The notes under the pieces are model-generated. The model was not told the DNA's origin. It did no database searches and was given only the letters and a program-made list of their open reading frames with translations. 64,000 bases of DNA, taken from the NCBI RefSeq assembly GCF_004216855.1, contig NZ_SGXT01000017.1, positions 62,001 through 126,000 of the forward strand. The letters are read 5' to 3'. Of this stretch, positions 36,643 through 50,782 are shown in pieces. Source of the stretch: Microcella alkaliphila (lineage in GTDB: Bacteria > Actinomycetota > Actinomycetes > Actinomycetales > Microbacteriaceae). Numbering within the stretch: position 1 is the first letter of the stretch; each line of letters starts with the position of its first letter. A program made the position numbers and the translations under genes.

Positions 36643-39030
36643 CTACAGCTTCACGATCGGAGCAATCTTGATGAGGAGCCGCTTGCGCCCCGCAGAGTCG
36701 AACTGCACTTCGGCGATCGACTTCGCCCCGTTCTGCGTGACGCCCGTCACGCGTCCCTCGCCGAAATCGTCGTGCCGGATGCGGTCGCCGACCTCCAGCG
36801 TCAGGTCACCGTTGTCGCGCACTGTGTTCGTGACTCGGTTGGCCCACTCGGTCTTCGGCTTGCCCGGGGGCAGCGACGATCCGTACGAGAAGGAGGGTTT
36901 CGACGAGCCGAGCTGGCGCTGGCCGGAGCCTGAGCGCATCCCCATGCCGGGGGAATCGCGCCAGTCGATCAGCTCAGCGGGAATCTCTTGCAGGTAGCGG
37001 CTGGGGGCCGCCACCTGGGTGTCGCCGAAGGTGGAGCGGGTCATCGCGAGGCTCAGGTGCAGCTTCTTGCGCGCGCGAGTGATGCCGACGTAGAACAGGC
37101 GCCGCTCTTCGGCGGGGCCTCCGGGCTCGGAGGCGCTCATCTGGTGCGGGAGGAGGTTCTCTTCGACACCGGTGATGAACACCGCGTCGTACTCGAGACC
37201 CTTCGCCGTGTGCAGGGTCATGAGCGAGACGGTGCCGGACGAATCGTCCAAGTCGTCGGCCGCCGCGACGAGCGCCACCTCCGTGAGGAAGTCGACGAGG
37301 CGCCCCTCGGGGTTGTTCTTCTGAAATTCGCGCGTGACGGCGACGAGCTCTTCGACGTTCTCGGCGCGGGCCTCGTCTTGCGGGTCGCGGCTCGCCCGCA
37401 ACAGCTCGAGGTACTTGGTTTTCTCGAGAATGCTCGTGACGATGTCGGGGACGAGCGCGGTGTCGATCGTCGCGCTCGCCTCATCGAGGATGCGCGCCAG
37501 CTCGAGCATCGCGCCGGTCACCTTCGGCCCAAGGCCGAGCGCCGCCGCGTCGCTGAGCGCGTCGCGCAACGTGCCACCCAGTTCATCGGCGTGCATCGCC
37601 AGTGCCGTCTCGGTCGCCGGCCCGATTCCCCGCTTCGGCGTGTTCAGGATGCGCCGCACCGCGAGCGCGTCGGCCGGGTTGGCGACCGCGATCAGGTACG
37701 CCATCACGTCTTTGATCTCGGCGCGCTCGTAGAACTTGGTGCCGCCGAGCACACGGTAGGGAATCGCCGAGCGGATCAGGATCTCTTCGAGCGCTCGAGT
37801 CTGCGCGTTCGTGCGGTAGAACACGGCCATCTGGTTGTACGGCATGCCGCCGTCGTGCAGGGCCGTGATTTCGTCGGCGACGAACTGCGCCTCATCGTGC
37901 TGGCTGTAGCCGGTGAACCCGGTGATCTTGTCGCCCGCGCCGACCGCGGTGAAGAGGTTCTTCGCGATGCGGTCGAAGTTGTTCGCGATGACGGCGTTGG
38001 CCGCGTCGAGGATCGTCTGCGTCGAGCGGTAGTTCTGCTCAAGCAGGATCACTTCGGCGCCCGGGAAGTCGCGCTCGAACTCGACGATGTTGCGGATGTC
38101 GGCGCCGCGGAAGGCGTAGATCGACTGGTCGGAGTCGCCGACCACCGTGAGCGCGGCGGGCGGGATCGCGCCCGATGCATCGGTCTCGATGCGGGTGTCG
38201 GCGGGCACGTGCTCAGGTCTCACGCCGCGGGTGAGCTCGCGAATCAGCGCGTACTGGGCGTGGTTCGTGTCTTGGTACTCGTCGACGAGGATGTGCCGGA
38301 ACCGGCGCTGGTACAGCGCCGCGACCTGCGGGAAGGCGCGGAACAGGTAGACCGTCTGGCCGATGAGGTCGTCGAAGTCGAGGGCGTTCGCTCGAGCGAG
38401 CTCGGCGGTGTAGCGCCGAAAGATCTCGAGGAACATGACCTCGGTCGGGTCGTTCTGGTTGTACTGCCGTGCGTAGGCGTCGGCGTCGATCAGCTCGTTC
38501 TTGAGCCGCGAGATCTTGCCGGCGACGGCGGGCACCGTGAGCCCCAGGGTGTCGGCCTGCAGCTCTTTCACAATGCGCTTGATGAGCGCGCGCGAGTCGG
38601 CCGAGTCGTAAATCGTGAACGCCTGCGTCATGCCGAACTGCTGGGCCTCGCGGCGCAGGATGCGCACGCACGCCGAGTGGAACGTCGAGATCCACATGCC
38701 CTGCGCGGCCTCGCGACCGATCAGGTGCCCCACCCGCTCGCGCATCTCGGCGGCCGCCTTGTTGGTGAACGTGATGGCCAAAATCTGGCTGGGCCAGAGC
38801 TCGCGGTCGCGCAAGAGCCGGGCGATGCGCCGCGTCAACACGCTCGTCTTGCCCGAGCCGGCACCCGCGACGATCAAGAGTGCGTCGGCCCTCGACTGCA
38901 CGGCAGCGAGCTGACGCTCGTTGAGCCCGGCCAGCAACGGATCAGTCGCCGGATCGCTGGCGGACGGGGCGGCGGGCCCCGCCTGCCAGGGGTCGGGCAC
39001 GGTATCGGCGTCGGGAGGAAGCAGCGTCAT
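36643..39030 (-). CDS. pcrA: UvrD/PcrA-type SF1A DNA helicase
   Basis: 795 residues; ATP-dependent 3'-5' helicase in excision repair and replication restart. Motifs: Walker A IVAGAGSGKTS, Ia ITFTNKAAAEM, II VDEYQDTNHAQ, III VVGDSDQSIYAFRGAD, IV EQNYRSTQTIL, V MTLHTAKGLEYD, VI YVGITRARKKL. A Tudor-like C-terminal domain (DRIRHDDFGEGRVTGV) binds RNA polymerase in PcrA proteins. ATG at 39030; the upstream region shares space with repeat copy E1 and the divergent nuclease-like gene. Confidence 0.97.
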   Translation of the reverse strand: MTLLPPDADTVPDPWQAGPAAPSASDPATDPLLAGLNERQLAAVQSRADALLIVAGAGSGKTSVLTRRIARLLRDRELWPSQILAITFTNKAAAEMRERVGHLIGREAAQGMWISTFHSACVRILRREAQQFGMTQAFTIYDSADSRALIKRIVKELQADTLGLTVPAVAGKISRLKNELIDADAYARQYNQNDPTEVMFLEIFRRYTAELARANALDFDDLIGQTVYLFRAFPQVAALYQRRFRHILVDEYQDTNHAQYALIRELTRGVRPEHVPADTRIETDASGAIPPAALTVVGDSDQSIYAFRGADIRNIVEFERDFPGAEVILLEQNYRSTQTILDAANAVIANNFDRIAKNLFTAVGAGDKITGFTGYSQHDEAQFVADEITALHDGGMPYNQMAVFYRTNAQTRALEEILIRSAIPYRVLGGTKFYERAEIKDVMAYLIAVANPADALAVRRILNTPKRGIGPATETALAMHADELGGTLRDALSDAAALGLGPKVTGAMLELARILDEASATIDTALVPDIVTSILEKTKYLELLRASRDPQDEARAENVEELVAVTREFQKNNPEGRLVDFLTEVALVAAADDLDDSSGTVSLMTLHTAKGLEYDAVFITGVEENLLPHQMSASEPGGPAEERRLFYVGITRARKKLHLSLAMTRSTFGDTQVAAPSRYLQEIPAELIDWRDSPGMGMRSGSGQRQLGSSKPSFSYGSSLPPGKPKTEWANRVTNTVRDNGDLTLEVGDRIRHDDFGEGRVTGVTQNGAKSIAEVQFDSAGRKRLLIKIAPIVKL

Positions 39031-39097
39031 GACCGCCTCAGTCTAGGTCGCTGCACCGACACCGTTTCGGCCGCGCGAGAGCCCCCGCTTCTCGGTT

Positions 39098-39171
39098 TTC
39101 AAGGAGTCCCGCGCTCGGCTCGCGGCGTGTCGGGCCTGACACGCCAGCGGAGACTCGCCGAACTCCTTGAA
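39098..39171. repeat. 74-bp palindromic repeat, copy E1
   Basis: Begins TTCAAGGAG and ends CTCCTTGAA (10-bp perfect arms), with an internal hairpin GGCGTGTC/GACACGCC starting at offset 26. Copy E2 (40220-40293) has the same length, ends and internal offsets. It lies 110 bp upstream of the nuclease-like gene, in the pcrA divergent region, where a terminator would make little sense. Confidence 0.8.
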
Positions 39172-39281
39172 TCGGGTCGAGCGGGCGTCGCCACTCCTCC
39201 ACTGCGGCGGTTCCGGATGCGGGGTGCCGGGTTCGTGGCCGCCCACGCCCGCCGGCCCGCCACCGGTCGCACAGTTCCGCG

Positions 39282-40208
39282 ATGAGCACTTCGTATCCCT
39301 CGCCCCTCACCCCCGGCCGAACGATCGGGCGCCTCTACGATGAAGTCGAGCGCCTCGGCGGCGCCATTCGAACGCGCGAACTGCACGCGCTGGGCTGGAG
39401 CCGCGCCGGCATCTCGCACCTCCTTGCGCGGCGACAGCTGATCCGGGCTCGGTCCGGGTGGTTCGTTCGACCCGGCACGGCACGCGCCGTCATCCACGCG
39501 GTGCGCGTCGGCGGCCAGTTATCCGGCGCGCACGCACTCGCCGCCCACGGCATCTGGTGTCTCCGAGACGCCACACTCCACGTCCGGGTGCCGCTGAACG
39601 CGTGCCAAATGAGAACGGCGACGAATCCGCGATTGCGGCTGTCACAGCATCCGGATGCTCGTATCGCAGTGCACTGGACGGGCGTCCGCGCGCCGGAGGT
39701 TGGCCCCCGCCCCGTCGTCGCTCCCCTGCTCGACGCCCTGCACGACTACGCGAAAGTCGCACCCCGCGACATGCTGCTCGCCACGGTGGGGGATGTGATC
39801 CACCAGCACCTGGCGGACCGCGCAGCCCTGCTCTCCCGTTTCGGCATCTCGGAGTGGGAGGGAGTTGACGGCGTGTGCGAGTCGGGCACGGAGACGCTCT
39901 TCTTCGTGCGGATGTTGCGCATGGGTTTGCACCCGTGGCGACAAGTCGCCTATCCCGGCATTGGCCGCGTCGACTTCCAGTTCGGTTCACACCTTGTCGT
40001 GGAGGTCGATGGGGCCACCTTTCACGACACCGCCGCTCAGTTCGCGCGCGATCGAGCCAAGGATGCGCTGCTTGCTCAGCGCGGCGTCCGAGTTCTTCGC
40101 TTCAGTCACGACCAGGTGGTCACTGAGTGGAGCAACGTCGCCGAGACGATGCGCGCCGTGACCGCGGTGGCCGCACCCCTCGGCTCGACCCGCTTCGACA
40201 CCCCGTGA
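39282..40208 (+). CDS. AbiEi-like wHTH protein with DUF559/Vsr-type nuclease domain
   Basis: 308 residues. N-terminal half (about 20-110) resembles the AbiEi antitoxin winged helix (IRTRELHALGWSRAGISHLL). C-terminal part (about 200-300) resembles DUF559/Vsr-like restriction-endonuclease folds: ESGTETLFFVRML, then IGRVDFQFGSHLVVEVDG, then FARDRAKDALLAQRGVRVL. That gives the E...D...E-x-D pattern of PD-(D/E)XK enzymes. Such solitary genes are common in actinobacteria and have no known role; there is no adjacent AbiEii toxin. It is bracketed by two copies of a 74-bp palindrome. ATG at 39282. Confidence 0.8.
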   Translation: MSTSYPSPLTPGRTIGRLYDEVERLGGAIRTRELHALGWSRAGISHLLARRQLIRARSGWFVRPGTARAVIHAVRVGGQLSGAHALAAHGIWCLRDATLHVRVPLNACQMRTATNPRLRLSQHPDARIAVHWTGVRAPEVGPRPVVAPLLDALHDYAKVAPRDMLLATVGDVIHQHLADRAALLSRFGISEWEGVDGVCESGTETLFFVRMLRMGLHPWRQVAYPGIGRVDFQFGSHLVVEVDGATFHDTAAQFARDRAKDALLAQRGVRVLRFSHDQVVTEWSNVAETMRAVTAVAAPLGSTRFDTP

Positions 40209-40219
40209 CGCCAAACGTT

Positions 40220-40293
40220 TTCAAGGAGCCAGGCCGGTGGCTGTCGGCGTGTCGACGCCGACACACCGAGCCCGCAACCCCGAGCTCCTTGAA
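40220..40293. repeat. 74-bp palindromic repeat, copy E2
   Basis: Direct-orientation relative of E1: TTCAAGGAG...CTCCTTGAA ends (12-bp arms counting flanks, 40218-40229 and 40284-40295), with GGCGTGTCG at offset 26 and GACAC at offset 40, as in E1. Lies 11 bp after the nuclease-like gene and before the convergent phosphodiesterase stop, so it may also terminate both transcripts. Confidence 0.8.
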
Positions 40294-40306
40294 AAGTGTT
40301 GCCGGG

Positions 40307-41287
40307 CTAGGGACGGAGCGCCTCGCGCGGGAGGTCGGGGTGGTCGGCGAACACCCCGTCGACGCCGGTGGCCGCGACCTCGGCAAACCACGCGTGCCAG
40401 TCGCCGTGGGCCGCGGATGACGCGCCCAGGCGATGCCGCTCGGGCAGGAAGCGGTTCTCGGGGCGCAGGGTCCACGCGTAGACGTCCAGTCCGCGGGCGT
40501 GCGCTCGGGTGACCAGGTCGCGCGACAGGGCGGACGTTTCGACGCTCAGCCCGTGCATCCCGGATTCGGCGAGCGCGTCGAGTCCCGCGTTCGTGCGCTG
40601 CGATTCCCAGCTCGGCGCCGCCCGCCCGCGCGCCGCGACGAGATCGGCGGCCGTGCCGCGCCGCTCGTGCAGGTAGACGAACCGCGCCCGCAGTTCGCGG
40701 CGCCGCAACTCGTCGAGCACGCCCTGCTCGAAGGACTCGACGATGAGCGGCGCCGTTCCCCCGCGTGCGCGCCAGCGGATCACCTCGCGCTCGACCAGCC
40801 GCGCCATGTCGATGCCGACCGAGGCGAAGTACGTCGCGTGCTTGATTTCGAGCACGACGGCGACCGGTCGAGGCGCCGCGTCGAGGATCCGTAGCACGTC
40901 CTCCAGCCGCAGCACGGGGTAGCGGCCGTCGAACCGCGTCGATGCGGGGCGCACGCGCGGCAGCCGCTCGCGGGCGGTCAGCGTCGACAGCTCGGCCCAC
41001 GTGAAGTCTTCCGTGAACCAGCCGGTGAGCTTGTGCCCGTCGACGACGCGCGTCGTGCGGCGGTCGGCGAACTCGGGACGGTCTGCGACGTCAGTGGTGC
41101 CGCCGATCTCGTTCTCGTGGCGCACCACGAGCACTCCGTCGCGGGTCGGCACCACGTCGGGCTCCACCGCGTCCGCGCCGAGGGCGATCGCCAGCTCGTA
41201 CGCGGCGGCGGTGTGCTCGGGGCGGTACCCGCTCGCTCCGCGGTGCGCAATCACCATCGGATGCTCGGGGCGCGTTTCGACAGCCAC
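40307..41287 (-). CDS. Glycerophosphodiester phosphodiesterase
   Basis: 326 residues; hydrolyses glycerophosphodiesters to glycerol-3-phosphate and an alcohol. GDPD barrel motifs: MVIAHRGASGYRPEHT with catalytic His and Arg-Glu, GADAVEPDVVPTRDGVLVVRHE (metal ligands and second His), VVLEIKHATYF and the closing TGVDGVFADHPDL. No signal peptide, so cytoplasmic. GTG at 41287 follows GGTGAGG; the longer frame is an antisense shadow of the next gene. Divergent from the small DUF4190 gene. Confidence 0.93.
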   Translation of the reverse strand: MAVETRPEHPMVIAHRGASGYRPEHTAAAYELAIALGADAVEPDVVPTRDGVLVVRHENEIGGTTDVADRPEFADRRTTRVVDGHKLTGWFTEDFTWAELSTLTARERLPRVRPASTRFDGRYPVLRLEDVLRILDAAPRPVAVVLEIKHATYFASVGIDMARLVEREVIRWRARGGTAPLIVESFEQGVLDELRRRELRARFVYLHERRGTAADLVAARGRAAPSWESQRTNAGLDALAESGMHGLSVETSALSRDLVTRAHARGLDVYAWTLRPENRFLPERHRLGASSAAHGDWHAWFAEVAATGVDGVFADHPDLPREALRP

Positions 41288-41318
41288 CTCACCGAGCGTA
41301 CGCGGTAGCCTCGCGGGC

Positions 41319-41585
41319 ATGAGCGACCCGACGCCCGCGGATCTCCGCCCGCGCCGCCGCACCAACGCGCTCGCGGTCGTCGCGTTCATCCTGGCCCTCC
41401 TCGTCAGCCCGTTCGCCGCCCTCTTCGGCCACATCGCCGCCGGCCAGATCCACCGCTCGGGCGGCGCCGAGCGCGGCGCCCCGCTCGCCTGGACTGCCGT
41501 CGGGCTCGGCTACCTCTGGCTCGCCGGCTGGATCTTCGCCGGAGCCCTCGTCTACCAGGCCTTCACCGCCCCGTTCCCGTCGTGA
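41319..41585 (+). CDS. Small DUF4190-type membrane protein
   Basis: 88 residues with two hydrophobic segments (about 18-42 and 58-82) separated by GHIAAGQIHRSGGAERGAPLA, the typical DUF4190 pattern. Function unknown. ATG at 41319 with a TAGCCT box about 9 bp upstream, suggesting a leaderless mRNA. A second DUF4190-type protein is encoded at 60758-61183. Confidence 0.8.
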   Translation: MSDPTPADLRPRRRTNALAVVAFILALLVSPFAALFGHIAAGQIHRSGGAERGAPLAWTAVGLGYLWLAGWIFAGALVYQAFTAPFPS

Positions 41586-41601
41586 CCGAGGCACCGAAGC
41601 C

Positions 41602-42099
41602 GTGAGCGCCGACCACCTGCCCCTGCGCTGGGGAACTCACCGCGAGCGCGTCGCGATCGGCCTCACCCTCATCGCCGGGGGGCTCGTGCACCTGCAGGCG
41701 GCGAGCACGACGAACCTGTGGCCGCTCGCCGTCGGCTCGGCCGCGCACGCCCTCGGCTGGTTCCTGCTGCCCGCGCGCGCCTGGCGTCGACTGCTGCCGG
41801 TCGCCCCGAGCCTTGGCACCGTCTGGCTGCTGCTCACCGGCCCGCAAGCGCTCTGGACCCTCGCCGTGCCGTACCTCGGTTGGCTGCTCGCCCGCCACCG
41901 CCCCTGGATCTCCCTCATCACCCTCGGTCCGGTGCTACTCGCCGGCGTCGTCGCCGCCGTCGCCTTCCGCGAGTACCCCGGCATGCTGGCCGCCCTCGCG
42001 CTCGGCGCGGTCGTCACCGTCGGATGCTCGTGGTGGGCGGCCGCGCTCGATCGCGCGCCGTCTGCGCGGTCGCGCCCCGCGCATCCAGCCGCTGCATAG
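41602..42099 (+). CDS. Hypothetical multi-pass membrane protein
   Basis: 165 residues, about five hydrophobic helices (ERVAIGLTLIAGGLVHL..., SLGTVWLLLTGPQALWTLAVPYLG, ALALGAVVTVGCSWWA). No recognised domain. GTG start at 41602, 16 bp after the DUF4190 stop, so it is likely in the same transcript. Ends with a short basic, Ala/Pro-rich tail. Confidence 0.65.
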   Translation: MSADHLPLRWGTHRERVAIGLTLIAGGLVHLQAASTTNLWPLAVGSAAHALGWFLLPARAWRRLLPVAPSLGTVWLLLTGPQALWTLAVPYLGWLLARHRPWISLITLGPVLLAGVVAAVAFREYPGMLAALALGAVVTVGCSWWAAALDRAPSARSRPAHPAAA

Positions 42100-42191
42100 C
42101 CGCCACCAGGCGAATCGGGGCCGCACCTCCCTAGAATGGTGATGCCGACCGGCGACAACTCCGACTGGCCGACACCCCTGAAAGAGGACCC

Positions 42192-43004
42192 ATGGCTTCG
42201 ATGTCGAACCCCGCGTTCAACTCCCCCGCCTTCCAGCTGAACCAGACCTCGGCGATTGCGAACCGCGTGACGCCCGCGCCGAGCGCCGAGCAGCTCAACG
42301 AGCTCTACGGCCGCCCCTCGGCGACGCCCGCCGACACCGACCGGATGACCTACGAGGACACCATCCAGAAGGCCGTGGGCGCCTTCGCGATCCTCGCCGT
42401 GGGTGCCGCCATCGGCTGGTTCCTGCCGTTCCTCGCGATCCCCGCCGCGATCGCCGGGTTCGTGCTCGCGCTCGTCAACATCTTCAAGAAGAAGACCGTG
42501 CCGGGGCTCGTGCTGGCCTACGCGGCCGTGCAGGGCGTGTTCGTGGGTGGCATCTCGGCGATCTTCGAGCAGATGTACGCGGGTATCGCCGTGCAGGCGC
42601 TCATCGGTACCGGCGCTGTCTTCGTGACGACGCTGCTGCTGTTCCGCAGCGGCAAGATTCGTGCATCGAAGCGGGCCACCAAGGTGTTCCTCATTGCGAT
42701 GGTCGGCTACGCGCTGTTCTCGCTCATCAACCTGGGACTGATCCTGTTCGGCGCGACTGACCAGCCCTTCGGCCTGCGCACCACCGAGGTCTTCGGCGTC
42801 CCGCTCGGCCTGATTCTCGGCGTCCTCGTCGTGCTGCTCGCCGCCTACTCGCTCGTGCTCGACTTCGACGCCGTCAAGCGTGGCGTCGAGAACGGCGCCC
42901 CGCGTCAGTTCGCCTGGCGCGCGGTGTTCGGCATCGTGCTCACCGTCGTCTGGCTGTACATCGAGATCCTCCGCATCCTCGCCATCCTCCGCGGAGGCGA
43001 GTAG
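42192..43004 (+). CDS. Bax inhibitor-1/YccA family membrane protein
   Basis: 270 residues. A hydrophilic N-terminus of about 60 residues (NPAFNSPAFQLNQ...) and seven hydrophobic helices, with the family's QGVFVGGISAIFEQ and final FDAVKRGVENGAPRQFAWRA near the C-terminal helices. TMBIM-like proteins are proposed Ca2+/H+ channels or stress-related factors; the bacterial role is unsettled. ATG at 42192 with an AAAGAGGA site. Converges with the TPR gene at a hairpin. Confidence 0.92.
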   Translation: MASMSNPAFNSPAFQLNQTSAIANRVTPAPSAEQLNELYGRPSATPADTDRMTYEDTIQKAVGAFAILAVGAAIGWFLPFLAIPAAIAGFVLALVNIFKKKTVPGLVLAYAAVQGVFVGGISAIFEQMYAGIAVQALIGTGAVFVTTLLLFRSGKIRASKRATKVFLIAMVGYALFSLINLGLILFGATDQPFGLRTTEVFGVPLGLILGVLVVLLAAYSLVLDFDAVKRGVENGAPRQFAWRAVFGIVLTVVWLYIEILRILAILRGGE

Positions 43005-43008
43005 TTAC

Positions 43009-43047
43009 GACGGCCTCGAGCGCGACTCAGTCGAGCTCGAGGTCGTC
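43009..43047. terminator. Bidirectional terminator hairpin
   Basis: 13-bp stem with one wobble (43009-43021 with 43035-43047) and a 13-nt loop, between the Bax-inhibitor and TPR genes; it overlaps the last codons of the TPR gene. Confidence 0.6.
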
Positions 43048-43524
43048 AACGTACGACGCGACCGCGCGACCGTACTCCGGAAGCCGCGGGGCAAGCGCTG
43101 ACAGCGCGAGCCTCGCGGCTTCCCCCTTTCTGCCGAGGTCGATGAGGCACAGCGCGGCGAAGGCGGACGCCTGGGCACCCACCTCGTCGTCCTCGACGAA
43201 CGGCTCCAGCAGGGCGAACGCCTCCTCGGCCCGGCCGAGATTGCGCAGGGAGGACGCGAGTTGGATCACGGCACGCTCGCCGTCGGGCGACGGGAGGCCG
43301 GCCGCGAGGGCTGCCTCGTAGAGGGGAACAGCATCCGCCTCGTATCCGAGCGCGTCGCGCAGCGACGCCCGTTCGAACAGGATGCGCGCCACCGGCAGAC
43401 CGTCGACGATCGCGAGCAGGCGCGCGTCGGCCTCCGAAAGTTTCACGTCGTCGTCGAGCTCGTCCCAGAAATGGGCGAGCTCACGGTCGACATCGACCGC
43501 GTCGACGGAATCGACGTCAGCCAC
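43027..43524 (-). CDS. Tetratricopeptide-repeat protein
   Basis: 165 residues, acidic. About residues 50-150 form helical TPR-type repeats (DALGYEADAVPLYEAALAAG, RAVIQLASSLRNLGRAEEAF, AFAALCLIDLGRKGEAARLA), the TPR_5 style common in actinobacteria. No enzymatic motif; a protein-interaction scaffold is the only safe inference. ATG at 43524, 3 bp after the guaA stop, so probably co-transcribed with guaA. Confidence 0.85.
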   Translation of the reverse strand: MADVDSVDAVDVDRELAHFWDELDDDVKLSEADARLLAIVDGLPVARILFERASLRDALGYEADAVPLYEAALAAGLPSPDGERAVIQLASSLRNLGRAEEAFALLEPFVEDDEVGAQASAFAALCLIDLGRKGEAARLALSALAPRLPEYGRAVASYVDDLELD

Positions 43525-43527
43525 GAA

Positions 43528-45105
43528 CTACTCCCATTCAATAGTCCCCGGGGGCTTCGACGTGACGTCGAGCACGACCCGGTTCACACCCTCGACCTCG
43601 TTCGTGATGCGGTTCGAGATGCGGGCGAGCACGTCGTAGGGCAGGCGCGTCCAGTCGGCGGTCATCGCGTCTTCGCTCGACACCGGGCGCAGCACGATCG
43701 GGTGCCCGTAGGTGCGACCGTCGCCCTGCACGCCCACCGAGCGCACGTCGGCGAGCAGCACGACCGGGCACTGCCAGATGGCCGCATCGAGGCCGGCCGC
43801 CGTCAACTCGTGGCGCACGATCGCGTCGGCTTGCCGCAGCAGCTCGAGCCGCTCCTCCGTCACCTCGCCGATGATGCGGATGCCGAGGCCCGGCCCCGGG
43901 AACGGCTGGCGCGCCACAATCGGCTCGGGCAACCCCAGCTCGCGGCCGATCGCGCGCACCTCGTCCTTGAACAGGGTGCGCAGCGGCTCGACCAGCTCAA
44001 ACTCGAGGTCGTCAGGGAGACCCCCGACGTTGTGGTGGCTCTTGATGTTCGCCGTGCCGGTGCCGCCGCCGGACTCGACGACGTCGGGGTAGAGCGTGCC
44101 CTGCACGAGGAACTTCACGGCCTCGCCCTCGCCCTGCGCCTCGAGCACGAGCGCCTCGGCGGCGTTCTCGAACGTGCGGATGAACTCGCGGCCGATGATC
44201 TTGCGCTTCGTTTCTGGGTCGGTGACGCCCGACAGCGCATCCAGGAACTGCTGACGAGCATCCACCGTCACCAGGCGGATGCCCGTGGCGGCCACGTAGT
44301 CTTCCTCGACCTGGCGGCGCTCATCGGCCCGCAACAGCCCGTGATCGACGAAGACGCAGACGAGTTGGTCGCCGACCGCCTCGTGCACGATCGCCGCCGC
44401 GACCGCGCTGTCGACGCCGCCGGACAGCCCGCAGATGACCCGCGCATCCCCGACCTGCTCGCGAATGCGCTCGACCTGCTCGGCGATGACGCTGCCGCTG
44501 TTCCAGTCCGGCGCGATGCCAGCGGCGCGGTGCAGAAAGTTCTCGAGCACGCGCTGGCCGAACTCGGAGTGCTTCACCTCGGGGTGCCACTGCACGCCGT
44601 ACAGCTTCTTCTCGTCGCTCGCGAACGCGGCGACCGGAGTGTCGTCGGTGCTGGCCAGCACGTCGAAACCCTCGGGGGCCTTGGCGACAGAGTCTCCGTG
44701 GCTCATCCAGGTGATCTGGATCTCGGGCTGGTCGGTCAGGAGGCTGCCGCCGTCGCCGACGATGCGGGCGGTGGTGGCGCCGTACTCGCGACGGCCCGTC
44801 TTCGCGACCTCACCGCCGAGCTGCTTCGCCATCACCTGGAAGCCGTAGCAAATGCCCATGACCGGCACGCCAAGTTGCAGAATCGCCGGGTCGAGGTCGG
44901 GCGAGCCCGGCTCGTAGACGCTCGACGGGCCGCCGCTCAAGACAATCGCGGCCGGGTTCTTCGCCGCCACCTCGTCGGCCGAGATGGTGTGCGGCACGAT
45001 CTCGGAGTACACGTTCGCCTCGCGCACCCGTCGCGCGATCAGTTGCGCATACTGGGCGCCGAAGTCGACGACGAGAACCGGGCGGTGATCGGTGCCGGCG
45101 CTCAC
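43528..45105 (-). CDS. guaA: GMP synthase (glutamine-hydrolysing)
   Basis: 525 residues; XMP plus glutamine plus ATP to GMP. Glutaminase domain with nucleophile GICYGFQ and [11 protein letters not shown] pyrophosphatase PP-loop [14 protein letters not shown]-terminal dimerisation domain closing KPPGTIEWE. The GTG at 45105 overlaps the DUF3817 stop (GTGA). Product of the GuaB reaction encoded 4 kb away is its substrate. Confidence 0.97.
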
Positions 45106-45551
45106 GCGGACGCGCCCTCGGTCGCGGGGCGCGCACGCTGCTCGGCTTCGAGCGACGCGATCAGCGCCTCGACCTCGCGGGGCACCTGGCGCTCGAAGAA
45201 GAACGACAGAAGGGGCACGATGCCGCCCATCGCGATCCACAAGAACTTCCAGAACGGCCAGCGCAGAAGGCGCCACAGCAGGAAGTCGCAGGCGAGGTAC
45301 AGCACGTAGAGCCAGCCGTGCACGGCCAGCAGGAAGATCGACAGGTTGAAGCCCGTCAGCTCGCCCACCGGGGTGAGGGCGAGAAAACCGCTCTCGCCGT
45401 TCAGCTCGATGTCGCTGCCGAGGCCGTAGCGGGTGATCATCATGACCACGAGGCCGAGCAGGAAGGTGCCCGTCAGCACGGAAGAGACCTTGTACACGGC
45501 AAGGGTGCGACGGATCGCGGGGATGTCCTTGGGGCTGGGGCCGATCGCCAT
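45102..45551 (-). CDS. DUF3817 family membrane protein
   Basis: 149 residues with three hydrophobic helices ([59 protein letters not shown]) and the conserved VHGWLY...DFLLWR motif of DUF3817. Commonly next to guaA in actinobacteria. Role unknown. ATG at 45551. Coupled to guaA by GTGA. Confidence 0.87.
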
Positions 45552-45556
45552 GGCTC

Positions 45557-46366
45557 TCAGTTTAGGGCGGCGGGCTGAGGCTCCGGTGCGCGGGCGGGGT
45601 CGCGGGTGGGCTCATCGTTGCGTGCCCCCTCCGCCGCGTCCTCCTCTACGGCGAGCTGCTTCTCGTACTCGTCGCGTAGCAGGCGCCACCAGAGGTAGAT
45701 GGCGAAGCCGCCGAACAGCACCCACTCGATCGCGTAGAACACGTTCAAGAGGTTCAGCTGACCCTCGATGACGGGCGGCGGCGCCGGAATCGTCGCGAAA
45801 CCCTCGGGCGCCTCGCTCAGCACGAGGTAGCCCAAATAGATCGGGCCGGGTTCGGGCCACACGTTGACAAGGTCGGCGACGGCAATGGCCGTACGCTCGC
45901 CCGCCTCGAAGTTCGACGTCTGCGGCGCCTCACTCGGCACGTAGCGGCCGGTGAGCGTCGCCGCGCCCTGGTCCAGGTTCGGGATGCTCGCCCCCTCGGG
46001 CAGGACCCCCACCGCGACGGCGAGGCTGGCCCCGTCGGCCGTCCTGAGGTGGCGCACCACCCAGTCGCCGTCCCGCGTGCCGTTCACCTCGGTGAGCGTC
46101 TGGCGGCCCGTCATCACGAGCTCATCCCCCTCGACCCACGAGCCGTCCACCGTGACGATGCGGCCGCTCGCGTCGGAGGTCATCACCTGCTGCGGCTCGG
46201 CGAGGTCGACGAGCGGCGTCGGGGTTTCCGTGTCGCGCTCGACCACGATGGCCTCCTCGGCGGCGCGCTCCAGCTGCCACTGGCCCATCGCGGCGAAGAC
46301 GCCGGCGACGGTGAGCGCCAGGATGAGCAGGGCGATCCACTTCGGACGGCGCGCGAGTTTCCACAC
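45557..46366 (-). CDS. SURF1 family cytochrome oxidase assembly protein
   Basis: 269 residues. Two membrane segments (about 11-29 and 222-240) enclose an extracytoplasmic loop, the SURF1/Shy1 topology. Motifs: [12 protein letters not shown] after the first helix and [21 protein letters not shown] at the second. Aids heme a insertion or assembly of cytochrome c oxidase. GTG start at 46366. Five bp before the DUF3817 gene, so SURF1-DUF3817-guaA-TPR probably form one transcript. Confidence 0.9.
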
Positions 46367-46442
46367 GGCTTACATTCTGCCGGGTACGACTGTGGCGGGG
46401 CTGAGCCGGAAGCCGTGAGCCCCCTCGCGGGCGCCTGCCGCG

Positions 46443-47561
46443 CTAGCGCGAGTGGTACGGCGCGACGACGACCTCGACGCGCTGGAACTCCTTCAGGTCG
46501 GAGTACCCCGTTGTCGCCAACGAGCGACGCAGCGCGCCCATGAGATTCACCTGGCCGTCAGCGTGTCGCGACGGGCCGAACATGAGCTGCTCGAGCGGCG
46601 CGAGCTGGTCAACCGCGACACGGTTGCCGCGGGGAAGCTCGGAGTGGTGCGCCTCGGCGCCCCAGTGCCACCCTCGACCGGGTGCGTCGGTCGCCTTCGC
46701 GAGTGCGGAACCGAGCATGACCGCATCCGCCCCCATGGCGACCGCCTTGACGATGTCGCCGCTCGTGCCGAGGCCGCCGTCGGCGATGACGTGCACGTAG
46801 CGGCCGCCCGACTCGTCCATGTAGTCGCGGCGGGCGGCGGCGACGTCACTCACGGCCGTGGCCATCGGGGCGTGGATGCCGAGGCTCAGGCGCGTGGTGC
46901 TTGCCGCCCCGCCGCCGAAGCCGACCAGCACACCCGCGGCGCCCGTGCGCATGAGGTGCAGCGCCGCGGTATAGGTGGCGGCGCCGCCGACGATGACGGG
47001 CACGTCGAGCTCGTAGATGAACTTCTTGAGGTTCAGGGGCTCGCGGTCGCGGGCGACGTGCTCGGCGCTCACCGTCGTGCCGCGAATCACGAACAGGTCG
47101 ACGCCGGCGTCGACGACGTCTTGGAAATGTTCCTGGGTGCGCTGCGGGCTGAGTGCGCCGGCGACCGGCACCCCCGCCTCGCGAATCTCGGCGAGGCGCT
47201 GGCGAATGAGCTCCGGCTTGATCGGCTCGGCGTAGATGCGCTGCATCTCGGCGGTCGCCGCGGCCGGGTCAAGCTGACGGATGCGTTCGAGCTCGGCGTC
47301 GGCATCCTCGTAGCGGGTCCAGAGGCCTTCGAGGTCGAGAACGCCGAGACCGCCGAGGCGTCCCATGGCAATGGCCGTCGCGGGGCTGACCACCGAGTCC
47401 ATGGGGGCGGCGATCACCGGGGTGTCGAAGGTGAAGGCATCGATCGTCCACGTCAACGACACGACCTCGGGGTCGCGCGTGCGGCGGCTCGGCACCACCG
47501 CAATGTCGTCGAAGGAGTACGCCCTGCGCGCCCGCTTGGCCCGACCGATCTCGATTTCCAT
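46443..47561 (-). CDS. guaB3: GuaB3 family IMP dehydrogenase-related protein
   Basis: 372 residues. IMPDH/GMPR TIM barrel without CBS domains: YSFDDIAVVPSRRTRDPE, PVIAAPMDSVVSP, VHVIADGGLGTSGDIVKA. In the active-site loop the sequence is VGFGGGAASTTR where true IMPDH has [12 protein letters not shown], so the catalytic Cys is Ser. Function in actinobacteria is unsettled; cyanobacterial GuaB3 is reported as a GMP reductase. The ATG at 47561 is chosen over the adjacent GTG. A TAGGCT box lies 10 bp upstream and a 22-bp tandem repeat occupies the expected -35 region. Confidence 0.9.
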   Translation of the reverse strand: MEIEIGRAKRARRAYSFDDIAVVPSRRTRDPEVVSLTWTIDAFTFDTPVIAAPMDSVVSPATAIAMGRLGGLGVLDLEGLWTRYEDADAELERIRQLDPAAATAEMQRIYAEPIKPELIRQRLAEIREAGVPVAGALSPQRTQEHFQDVVDAGVDLFVIRGTTVSAEHVARDREPLNLKKFIYELDVPVIVGGAATYTAALHLMRTGAAGVLVGFGGGAASTTRLSLGIHAPMATAVSDVAAARRDYMDESGGRYVHVIADGGLGTSGDIVKAVAMGADAVMLGSALAKATDAPGRGWHWGAEAHHSELPRGNRVAVDQLAPLEQLMFGPSRHADGQVNLMGALRRSLATTGYSDLKEFQRVEVVVAPYHSR

Positions 47562-47579
47562 CACCCGGCAAGCCTATCG

Positions 47580-47656
47580 GGCGGGGTGCAGGCTGGCGGG
47601 GGGCGGGGTGCAGGCTGGCGGGGGGCGGGGTGCAGGCTGGCGGGGGGCGGGGTGCA
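47580..47656. repeat. 22-bp tandem repeat, about 3.5 copies
   Basis: The unit GGCGGGGTGCAGGCTGGCG plus GGG is repeated at 47580-47601, 47602-47623 and 47624-47645, followed by a half copy to 47656. No divergence between copies. It starts 19 bp upstream of the guaB3 ATG, in the promoter region. The rest of the 290-bp gap to 47854 is GC-rich sequence with the palindrome at 47793-47830 and no convincing gene. Confidence 0.95.
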
Positions 47657-47792
47657 CGCGGCATCGAGCCCTCGCGCCAGCCCCCGCCGCACCGCACTGC
47701 GCTCACTGCCGCCCCGCCCCGCGGCCGCTGCCGCCCTTCCCCACGCTCGCTTCCGCCCTGCCCACGGTCCTGCGCCGCGACCCCGCGCGTTT

Positions 47793-47830
47793 GGTGCGGT
47801 ACTGCACGTTCGAACGTGCAGTGTTGCACC
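47793..47830. repeat. 38-bp palindromic element, copy P1
   Basis: GGTGC, 11 nt, TTCGAA, 11 nt, GCACC. The inner 22 bp (47801-47822) are a perfect palindrome. Copy P2 (48931-48968) has identical ends, centre and spacing but different, still-complementary stems. Lies 24 bp past the stop of the nuclease-like gene at 47855. Confidence 0.8.
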
Positions 47831-47854
47831 GGAGGGACCGTGTGCCCGAGAGAC

Positions 47855-48820
47855 CTACGCCCGCGGCACCCCGTGCTCAGCGAGAAGTGACGCGAAGCGC
47901 TGTGGAGTCCATAGATCATCCCAGATCCAGCGCGCGACTCCCTCCCCCTCACGCCGAAGTGCATCCTCCCGGAGCTTCTCTTCCACCACGACCTGCTCTG
48001 GCGTTCGACCCCGACGAAACTCCGCTGCGCGGTATTTGGCGATGCCGTCGTACTCGCCCACGATGCGCTGACGCGACCACCGAAAGTCCGTCACCGCGCG
48101 TCGACCGGTATCGAGGCGAAACTCGTACTGCAGCTCAGGGATCACGAAGCCGAGTTCGAACATGCGGACCCGACTGAGCGACTCCCCCGCGGACGCGGCT
48201 CGGCCATCGGCGAAGCTCAGCACATGCGCGAGCCGGCGAGCGCCGCGGACAAGCTCCAGTTCGGCCGCGCGCTCGTGAATCAGCGGCGCGGGCACCCGCG
48301 GGCTGTGACCCTCGCGACCGGGGCCAGACGCCCAGTCCATGGCGACAACGCCCTCCGCAAAGGTTGTGCGGCTCGTGAGCTCGACGAGAGTGCGGGCGAG
48401 ATCTGTGACCAGCACACCGTCGACGCTGACGATATGGGCCTCCGGGGCCCTCGTGCCGCGATAGTGGAGGCTGCCCGACACTCGCCCGGCCTCCGGCGCG
48501 CCTGCGAGCACGTCGACGCGTCTCGCACTGCGAAGAAGAGGGATTCCCCAGATGGCGGCGGCGGCCGCATGGCAGAGAACTGCATCCGGACGAGCTCGAG
48601 CAACCGCGAGGCACCTGAGCCGATAGCGCTCCCAGGGTCGCGCTTCAGCCCAGACCGAACTCGCGATGTAGGCACCACGCTCGACACGAACGAGGTCACC
48701 GCGCGCAACTGCGCGCGCAAGGGTTGAACGCTCGCCGTGCAAGCGCGAGACATCCCGGGCGAGCACGAAGCCATCTGGCCCAATGGGTAAGTCGTCGAGG
48801 GGGGTGACCATGGGCGGCAT
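47855..48820 (-). CDS. AbiEi-like wHTH protein with Vsr-type nuclease-like C-terminus
   Basis: 321 residues from the ATG at 48820 (ATG 48811 equally possible). N-terminal wHTH as in AbiEi-family proteins (LARDVSRLHGERSTLARAVA, then LVRVERGAYI). A middle region follows with HAAAAAIWGIPLL. The C-terminus (about 225-321) has ESLSRVRMFELGF, TDFRWSRQRIVGEYDG and EEKLREDALRREG, fitting a PD-(D/E)XK/Vsr-like E...D...E...K pattern. Solitary, no toxin partner. Distantly similar in design to 39282-40208 and, like it, bracketed by a matched pair of palindromes. The frame stays open upstream to 48967 through palindrome P2, which is probably not translated. Confidence 0.75.
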   Translation of the reverse strand: MPPMVTPLDDLPIGPDGFVLARDVSRLHGERSTLARAVARGDLVRVERGAYIASSVWAEARPWERYRLRCLAVARARPDAVLCHAAAAAIWGIPLLRSARRVDVLAGAPEAGRVSGSLHYRGTRAPEAHIVSVDGVLVTDLARTLVELTSRTTFAEGVVAMDWASGPGREGHSPRVPAPLIHERAAELELVRGARRLAHVLSFADGRAASAGESLSRVRMFELGFVIPELQYEFRLDTGRRAVTDFRWSRQRIVGEYDGIAKYRAAEFRRGRTPEQVVVEEKLREDALRREGEGVARWIWDDLWTPQRFASLLAEHGVPRA

Positions 48821-48885
48821 TGTGCGCGCGCCCCACCGGCGGAGTGCGGGGTGCGCGTGACCTGCAGAACCAGCGTGGCTACACC

Positions 48886-48919
48886 GACACGGGGAGGAGT
48901 CAGGACTCCTCCCCGTGTC
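48886..48919. repeat. 34-bp near-perfect inverted repeat
   Basis: 16-bp perfect arms starting GACACGGGGAGGAGTC (48886-48901, 48904-48919) with only AG between. It is immediately beside palindrome P2, giving two consecutive strong hairpins between guaB and the nuclease-like gene. Could act as the guaB terminator. Confidence 0.75.
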
Positions 48920-48930
48920 ACCCGCTGTTC

Positions 48931-48968
48931 GGTGCAAACCCGCGCGTTCGAATGCGCGGGTTTGCACC
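48931..48968. repeat. 38-bp palindromic element, copy P2
   Basis: GGTGC, 11 nt, TTCGAA, 11 nt, GCACC. Arms extend to 19 bp (48927-48945 and 48954-48972). Same framework as P1 with compensating changes in both arms. 110 bp upstream of the nuclease-like gene and 74 bp beyond the guaB stop. Confidence 0.8.
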
Positions 48969-49045
48969 GAACTCGCGGTATTGACTCGCGACCCGCGCGC
49001 GGGGGCGGCGGTGCGGCGCCGAACGCGCGGCGCGGGGCGCGGGCG

Positions 49046-50551
<1,506 letters not shown>

Positions 50552-50782
50552 TCACTGACTCCTCTGTAAACGCGGGAACGGAGCCGGATGCGACGCTGGA
50601 ATCCGGTGTTCCATCTTAAGCGGGTTGGGGCGGAACGTATTCCGTGCCCATAATGACTACGCGGATTCGCATTTCGTCGCGAAACACGGCGGCAACGTGC
50701 GGGTCCTATCGTCAATGCTGACGGACCGGGCCGCCTGGCCCGCGGGGCTGCGCGCCTCGACCCGAAACGACCTGGAGGTTTC

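Follow-up and report, generated by a model that had tools for sequence, protein, structure and literature searches.

The DNA considered in this study, which I will call the window, is a 64,000-nt stretch of the genome of Microcella alkaliphila, and its subject is a gene for a predicted DNA-binding nuclease that lies between two palindromes. Gene 1 (47855..48808, minus strand) encodes an AbiEi winged-helix domain followed by a PD-(D/E)XK-type nuclease domain, with the motif D241..E252xD254G..K258; its start was taken at a GTG, a longer frame being possible. The palindrome P1 (47793..47830; no strand is assigned to this or any other repeat) has 38 bp and lies 24 bp past the stop of gene 1. P2, also of 38 bp (48931-48968) and nested in a 46-bp palindrome (48927..48972), lies upstream of the gene and 73 bp past the stop of guaB. 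Gene 1 is the sole gene between P1 and P2 and is codirectional with its upstream neighbor guaB (IMP dehydrogenase; 49046..50548, minus strand) and its downstream neighbor guaB3 (GuaB3 family; 46443..47564, minus strand).

P1 and P2 both fit GGTGC-N11-TTCGAA-N11-GCACC exactly, as the initial annotation of this DNA had claimed, and the fit is beyond chance for the window: with up to three mismatches allowed there are 4 matches against 0.49 expected, a number reached in 0 of 100 shuffles. Their stems are self-complementary at 8 of 11 positions (P1) and 10 of 11 (P2). The copies of this palindrome found in Microcella share one consensus, approximately GGTGCAACACCGCRCG-TTCGAA-CGYGCGGTGTTGCACC, and several of them have mismatched, mosaic arms. 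The covariation of stems that the annotation proposed holds only loosely within Microcella; it holds better between genera, the copies of Arthrobacter, Antribacter and Cellulomonas having the shell but different stems.

The window's own genome (2.69 Mb) is designated G000 and the other Microcella genomes G001-G025 (26 in all). The own genome contains five copies of the pattern, four exact and one with one mismatch, besides four more places with two mismatches that look unrelated by eye. All five copies sit 24 to ~143 bp downstream of a gene's stop. The three that adjoin no AbiEi gene are in gaps between a gabD-like gene and a permease gene, between a small gene and TetR, and between bglA and HhH-GPD (gene names read from the sequence). 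Microcella putealis CV2 carries palindromes identical to the window's. The literal pattern is present in 3 of the 26 Microcella genomes and, in a search across the Microbacteriaceae, in just 1 of 299 genomes (six of them Microcella), that one being the own genome. It was rejected as a signature of the system as a whole on the strength of these counts and the few Micrococcales among the matches listed.

A scan of a collection of genomes from 84,980 species gave at least 118 stretches with the pattern, a listing from which records near the window may be absent. The 26 listed matches with at least 8 of 11 self-complementary stem positions, some counted twice through overlapping loci, all come from Microcella, Arthrobacter, Antribacter or Cellulomonas. 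When the 118 listed stretches were searched with 70 AbiEi-family proteins, a homologue (E 1e-4) was found in two, both from Arthrobacter and both with the palindrome adjoining the gene. In these strains, Arthrobacter Soil782 and A. subterraneus, TTCGAA palindromes flank the AbiEi homologue on both sides, the literal pattern on one side and a copy with one end mismatch on the other (at 342 and 1322 in locus L095, at 5148 and 6269 in L105). The pair in L095 extends to palindromes of 70 and 68 bp, and the C-terminus of its gene diverges where the downstream palindrome lies, which may be a truncation. In L105, whose stems are less perfect, a scan for palindromes with a score of 10 gave none; the four Arthrobacter stretches align by eye. 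Shell, TTCGAA centre and gene recur jointly, then, in another bacterial family. Near-perfect palindromes of the GGTGC..TTCGAA..GCACC form, with 10-11 of 11 stem pairs, are also seen in Antribacter gilvus (L053, L080, L120, L125) and in a metagenome-assembled genome of Cellulomonas (L019).

The window holds a second case. Gene 2 (39282..40208, plus strand), with an AbiEi winged helix and a DUF559 nuclease domain, is bracketed by two copies of a nested palindrome, TTTTCAAGGAG..GGCGTGTC..GACACGCC..CTCCTTGAA. E1 (39096..39171) lies upstream of the gene, in a gap between divergent genes, and E2 (40218..40295) begins 9 bp past its stop, at a distance of 1122 bp from E1. The neighbors are genes for a UvrD/PcrA helicase and a GDPD, with no adjacent AbiEii. 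The annotation's claim of two AbiEi/nuclease-like genes with different pairs of palindromes stands, and the families of genes 1 and 2 prove homologous over their full length (hhalign 99.6%; 18 against 48 sequences, five rows excluded). A search for exact 9-bp arms finds no copy in the own genome besides E1 and E2, and none in the 25 other Microcella genomes. The gap between uvrD and glpQ contains no gene in G002, the closest relative (~31 bp), nor in G010 (~47 bp): gene 2 and both its elements are present or absent together. Homologues of gene 2 at the uvrD-glpQ locus (38-53% identity) are found in G005, G011 and G006, three of the 16 other genomes where the locus was found.

The proteins belong to a recognizable family. 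Gene 1 matches Pfam AbiEi_4 with an E-value of 6.8e-5 (23.3 bits, below the cut-off of 25) and the PADLOC AbiEi model with 1.8e-9, while gene 2 matches DUF559 (E 9.4e-8), MTES_1575 and AbiEi_4 and, weakly (E 7e-4), a PADLOC "homing endonuclease" model. In 71 aligned homologues the active-site motif D..ExDG..K/H has its first D in 71, its E in 66 and its second D in 68; at the final position of the motif the alignment has K in 18 homologues and H in 18. The motif is conserved as in PD-(D/E)XK nucleases, and nuclease activity is predicted. The N-terminal part of the structure model of gene 1 is winged-helix-like (predicted local distance difference test, pLDDT, 73-86), and the model's fold neighbors, AbiEi and I-Bth0305I, are suggestive only. 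No Y1/HUH tyrosine transposase or other transposase domain appears in gene 1 (AbiEi_4 only) or among the profile matches of gene 2. A sequence search of the PDB gave no useful match to gene 1 and, for gene 2, 3hrl at E 0.17. Six stretches from viral contigs fit the peptide pattern of gene 1, none encoding a relative; 1 of 50,697 phage records matched gene 2, the only query, over 30% of its length, and 4 of 72,556 plasmid records matched gene 1, again the only query. Within Microcella, AbiEi_4 matches occur in all 26 genomes, 118 rows in all, with several AbiEi paralogues per genome.

The question whether such genes in general sit between matching repeats was addressed by comparing the upstream flank of each AbiEi_4 gene with its downstream flank, a score of at least 16.5 counting as a pass. 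From the 118 rows, 60 loci were fetched (those on larger contigs and mostly with better E-values); 7 more are genes of the guaB locus, and 51 were left out. Twenty-three of the 60, in which the distance from match to stop fell outside 740-1020 nt, were set aside (one scored at least 16.5), as were four DeoR-type regulators, read as such from the sequence (one at 16.5), leaving 33 full-length genes. The controls are all from Microcella, with flank windows that start 60 nt inside the predicted frame rather than the profile match used for AbiEi genes; removal of the guaB-locus gene of G008 from 177 supposed controls left 176. The test was passed by 22 of the 33 AbiEi-nuclease genes and by 8 of the 176 controls (p 2e-15). 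Four of those eight are transposases of insertion sequences (IS) of the IS3/IS481 type, and the test therefore detects the ends of known elements. Family-wide, with 30 loci from 30 genera, 17 pass and 13 score at least 20, the own genome being included, as a negative. These counts, together with the two Arthrobacter genomes, bear out the suggestion of a general gene-palindrome system.

Two further counts agree with the first. They leave aside 11 of 80 genes that were in a wrong frame, short, of DeoR type or duplicates, among them L315, whose flanks shared an arm of 8 bases. The same palindromic arm, with at least 8 exact bases, is present in both flanks of 17 of 69 AbiEi genes, one of which (L160) looks like a chance GC-rich match, and of 3 of 259 controls, all three of them dsbA genes between copies of a neighboring abi gene's element. 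Among all 71 downstream flanks, a gene's own is the best partner of its upstream flank in 34 of 71 cases. The palindromes, where found, are mostly nested, some spanning 36-107 bp as scanned, with outer arms and a spacer, to which some add an inner GGCGTGTC motif, and many genes have a copy of the site just past their stop codon. Beyond the family, repeats stand on both sides of the gene at two of the three Tsukamurella loci and at the one Collinsella locus (scores of 72.5, 55.5 and 45.5). In the Collinsella aerofaciens locus (L415, gene at 1327-2403), there are two tandem TGTCTCRATCTGTAACA palindromes on each side, with near-identical arms. A palindrome score of at least 13, taken as the sole test near other AbiEi genes, proved misleading, since most elements are nested with long spacers, and was replaced by the pair test with controls. 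A comparison of protein distance with flank similarity gave a correlation (0 of 1000 permutations) and was dropped, because syntenic flanks share neighboring coding sequence.

The interval between guaB and guaB3 permits the pairs to be followed along one line of descent. It was fetched from 18 genomes, 13 of which have the AbiEi gene; where the gene is lacking, the interval measures 43-53 bp in G005, G011 and G003 and ~1.1 kb in G001 and G023. Presence and absence at orthologous loci, which the annotation proposed to compare, is seen at the gene 1 locus in the three short intervals and at the gene 2 locus in the two empty uvrD-glpQ gaps. All 13 proteins fall into a single clade (support 99/91), and the gene for that reason looks like a vertically inherited resident of the locus. 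By the pair test, eight of these genes have matching flanks (G000 16.5, G002 21.5, G004 20.5, G007 22, G009 17, G010 18, G019 24, G022 22). Three others (G006, G008, G020) score 11.5-14.5 and have related nested palindromes by eye, G012 has one palindrome, and G025 none. The palindromes are of the TTCGAA type in the subclade of G000 and G002, TGCGACACCTCGCAC (the TGCGACACC type) in G006, G008, G012 and G020, CCGTGCG-like in G007, G019 and G010, and GTTCCGGAAC-like in G009 and G022. The TGCGACACC type is additionally dispersed downstream of genes, at gene ends, in 6 of the 26 genomes. The palindromes are gene-specific, in short, and change with the gene within a single lineage; both flanks change together, sites and gene in concert.

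One explanation to consider is an IS-like transposon of the classical kind, bounded by terminal inverted repeats, since matching repeats at both ends of a gene are what IS3/IS481 elements have, the pair test scores the AbiEi genes as it scores those elements, and the uvrD-glpQ site, filled in G000, is empty in both G002 and G010. I find it scarcely credible nonetheless: genes 1 and 2 have no transposase domain, DDE or other, each end is itself a self-contained palindrome, the lineages at fixed loci are vertical, and the uvrD-glpQ junctions show no clear target duplication.

The best-sampled family of sites belongs to an abi gene that stands beside a glyS-like gene and has arms of the sequence CAAYTCAGGA. 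Of the 26 genomes, 24 have the paired pattern, at 4-20 copies each, and none has the reversed control pattern. An ortholog of the glyS-locus gene (at least 50% identity) is found in 23 genomes, all with sites; G018 and G019 have neither sites nor ortholog, only paralogues of 33-34%, and G021, a 71%-complete assembly, has four sites and no gene. The co-occurrence of gene and sites has a p of 0.009, uncorrected for kinship. In the eight genomes whose sites were listed in full (G000-G007), 59 of 73 sites lie within 75 kb of the gene, by hand count. The ~80 kb around the gene contain eight sites in G000 (C1:34226-116155) and nine in G002 (C1:1642219-1718965). In four loci (L275, L276, L283, L298) the order is glyS-like, abi, dsbA, with three copies of the palindrome, the middle one overlapping the 3' end of the abi frame.

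The 62 exact arm pairs in 380 kb of these regions have outer lengths of 76-77, 87-89, 98, 109, 120, 130-133, 144, 154, 178 and 187 bp, of which those above 100 bp may combine arms of neighboring sites. A period of 11.1 bp fits best, and in 5000 random sets of 16 lengths there was none as well phased as the 16 distinct lengths observed. An inner GGCGTGTCG is present in 30 of the 62 elements, about three of them counted twice through overlapping loci, only at offset 31-32 or 47-48, where shuffling leads one to expect 0.15. DNA looping in living bacteria has a period near 11 bp. Because the spacings amount to whole helical turns, they suggest recognition of the arms from one face of the double helix; a hairpin of RNA or single-stranded DNA needs no such phasing, which suggests that the CAAYTCAGGA sites are duplex-DNA sites and not RNA hairpins. 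The annotation's picture of a recognized fold is accordingly disfavored. Of the sites, 20 are in codirectional, 15 in convergent and 4 in divergent gaps, and 8 fall within predicted frames.

That the palindromes are transcription terminators, or hairpins at the 3' ends of mRNAs repeated by chance, is very improbable in this light. The position of P1 and P2, 24 and 73 bp past stops, would suit a terminator, as would that of the other three own copies and of the TGCGACACC copies, which also lie downstream of genes. They have no T-tract, however, there are 0 terminator-like sites in 46400-50600 and no Rfam match at gathering score in 38900-50600, E1 is found upstream of gene 2, between divergent genes, and termination requires neither gene-specific matching pairs nor 11-bp phasing.

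Systems such as ParB/parS and MatP/matS mark chromosomal regions, and a protein with clustered sites might organize the chromosome in the same way. The CAAYTCAGGA sites, mostly within tens of kb of their gene (59 of 73 in eight genomes) and helically phased, would fit this, while the P1/P2-type and TGCGACACC-type sites, few in number and spread genome-wide, would not, nor would gene 2 with only two sites, nor the several paralogues in each genome. I regard this explanation as improbable.

The known systems that come closest are of several kinds. AbiEi of Streptococcus agalactiae binds and represses its own promoter through an inverted pair of 11-bp arms with N27 between them (PMC3985639), and Rv2827c binds two sets of inverted repeats (PMC7319586). 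These type IV antitoxins resemble the proteins described here in a same-family N-terminal winged helix (the match being below cut-off) and in a site of spaced inverted arms, and P2, an inverted repeat upstream of gene 1, is a candidate operator. They differ in that no gene for an AbiEii nucleotidyltransferase toxin stands beside gene 1 (where guaB and guaB3 lie) or gene 2, the C-terminus is here a nuclease domain, and a copy of the site follows the gene as well. Because AbiEi and Rv2827c bind inverted repeats, the winged helix is the likely reader of the palindromes.

The palindromes might on this basis be purely regulatory, the upstream copy serving as the operator of an AbiEi-type repressor, and the copies downstream or dispersed elsewhere acting as additional operators, or as insulators, within a local regulon, with the nuclease domain dead or an unrelated effector and no movement at all. 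Autoregulation of AbiEi proteins through inverted repeats with spaced 11-bp arms (same sources) speaks for this, as do helical phasing, which fits duplex binding and looping, and the vertical look of the guaB and glyS gene lineages. It leaves unexplained the copy right after the stop codon in many genes, the joint presence and absence of gene and sites, and the conserved nuclease motif, and few CAAYTCAGGA sites are in promoter-like divergent gaps (4, against 20 codirectional and 15 convergent), though not significantly few (p 0.11). I consider it rather unlikely.

There is a likeness to REPtrons as well. REPINs are found near particular RAYT genes, which are tied to groups of palindromes (PMC3116915), and the RAYT genes lie between GTAG repeats or long terminal repeats, with GTAG or CGTC tags (PMC3733652). 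Here too a nuclease-type gene lies between cognate palindromes, genes are tied to palindrome groups, and related copies are dispersed outside genes, gene 2 being an exception, with no copies beyond E1 and E2. The differences are that an AbiEi winged helix and PD-(D/E)XK domain replace the HUH/Y1 transposase, that the GTAG/CGTC end tag (as given in PMC3733652) was not seen by eye in copies with 45-bp flanks, that 11-bp phasing suggests recognition of duplex rather than single-stranded DNA, and that dispersed copies number at most ~20. Homing endonucleases of the DUF559/Vsr-like (EDxHD) kind, such as I-Bth0305I, share the catalytic-domain motif, a weak fold match and the weak PADLOC match of gene 2, but the genes considered here are not in an intron, intein or phage, and their site copies flank the gene and are not disrupted by it.

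The best reading is that the arrangement is REPtron-like, a nuclease with co-evolving cognate sites and an unrelated enzyme. The pairing itself is solid; gene specificity, recurrence across genera, a conserved nuclease motif and extra dispersed copies of some sites are observed too, with clustering and helical phasing in one family. I incline, by a little, to the view that P1-gene-P2 exemplifies an arrangement widespread among actinobacteria, in which a protein with an AbiEi-type winged helix and a PD-(D/E)XK DUF559/Vsr-like nuclease is encoded between two cognate sites of its own and spreads or re-writes them. The winged helix would recognize the pair of inverted arms in double-stranded form, and each protein would have a site sequence of its own, with which it would co-evolve. 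The nuclease would cut at or between the arms, and repair would copy the site, or the site-gene-site cassette, to new places, much as a REPtron (RAYT with REP) or a homing endonuclease might work. The upstream copy probably doubles as an autoregulatory operator, by analogy with AbiEi antitoxins.

A number of observations weigh against this view. Binding, cutting and movement are steps that I infer from the arrangement, and the guaB and glyS gene lineages look vertical, not mobile. The P1/P2 pair scores 16.5, exactly the threshold, and 13.0 if the earlier start codon is taken; nor do its stems "differ completely," free in sequence, as the annotation had it, the Microcella copies being variants of one consensus. 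Below threshold are 11 of the 33 Microcella loci and 13 of the 30 family-wide, and among those that pass, L307 and L252 do so through GC-rich stretches and L310 and L315, two of the 17 family-wide, have doubtful frames. The structure model of gene 1 is weak (mean pLDDT 60, four sequences), as are its Foldseek matches to the AbiEi antitoxin (E 0.05) and the I-Bth0305I homing endonuclease domain (E 0.2, prob 0.94). The shortage of CAAYTCAGGA sites in divergent gaps (4 of 39, against 29 of 127 for all gaps) is not significant (p 0.11), and the junctions of G000, G002 and G010 at uvrD-glpQ, the one sharp empty site, show no clear target-site duplication.

The association of palindrome and gene is likewise imperfect. 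The initial annotation had named a pattern common at gene 3' ends genome-wide, with no link to this gene family, as grounds against it, and half of that is found: in the own genome an AbiEi gene adjoins only 2 of the 5 copies, the remaining 3 being downstream of unrelated genes. G010 has three TTCGAA palindromes, yet its own guaB-locus gene carries another pair. In Antribacter and Cellulomonas the palindrome is present with no AbiEi homologue (E 1e-4) in the 8-kb stretches around the matches. The Arthrobacter homologues are ~30% identical to their nearest Microcella relatives, and gene 1 is not among the 14 best matches listed. The TTCGAA copies without a matching neighbor gene (G010, Antribacter, Cellulomonas) and the loci without pairs are not accounted for by a nuclease that spreads its own sites.

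A broader claim is tentative, and I would call it less likely than not: that AbiEi-winged-helix/PD-(D/E)XK proteins are phylum-wide self-propagating recognition systems, each reading, as duplex DNA, a palindrome peculiar to itself (its arms specific to the gene and set at whole helical turns, an inner GGCGTGTCG core being shared in some cases at fixed offset), cutting it, and having site or cassette copied by repair into nearby gene ends. They would be a counterpart of RAYT/REPIN with an unrelated enzyme, vertically inherited residents that re-write their own site families. Genes for DUF559 proteins and "AbiEi-family antitoxins" keep turning up in these genomes without explanation, and if each nuclease reads its own palindrome family, then orphan genes and unexplained intergenic repeats account for each other. 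The arrangement points to an unrecognized system of nucleases that co-evolve with, and maybe spread, their own recognition sites. No description of paired palindromes around DUF559 or AbiEi genes was found in the open-access literature searched, outside which most subscription papers lie. The gene-specific pairs constitute dozens of natural protein-site combinations, and make a recognition code directly testable.

Some smaller features remain. Between P2 and gene 1 is a perfect 16-bp inverted repeat (48886..48919; sequence GACACGGGGAGGAGTC) with a 2-bp loop, which has a shorter counterpart in G002. Between guaB3 and P1, at 47583-47660, there are by eye three to four tandem copies of a ~24-bp unit of the GGCGGGGTGCAGGCTGGCGGGG type. 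In the guaB-guaB3 interval of several Microcella species (L198, L205, L207) the abi gene is followed by a gene on the opposite strand, oxidoreductase-like as read from its sequence.

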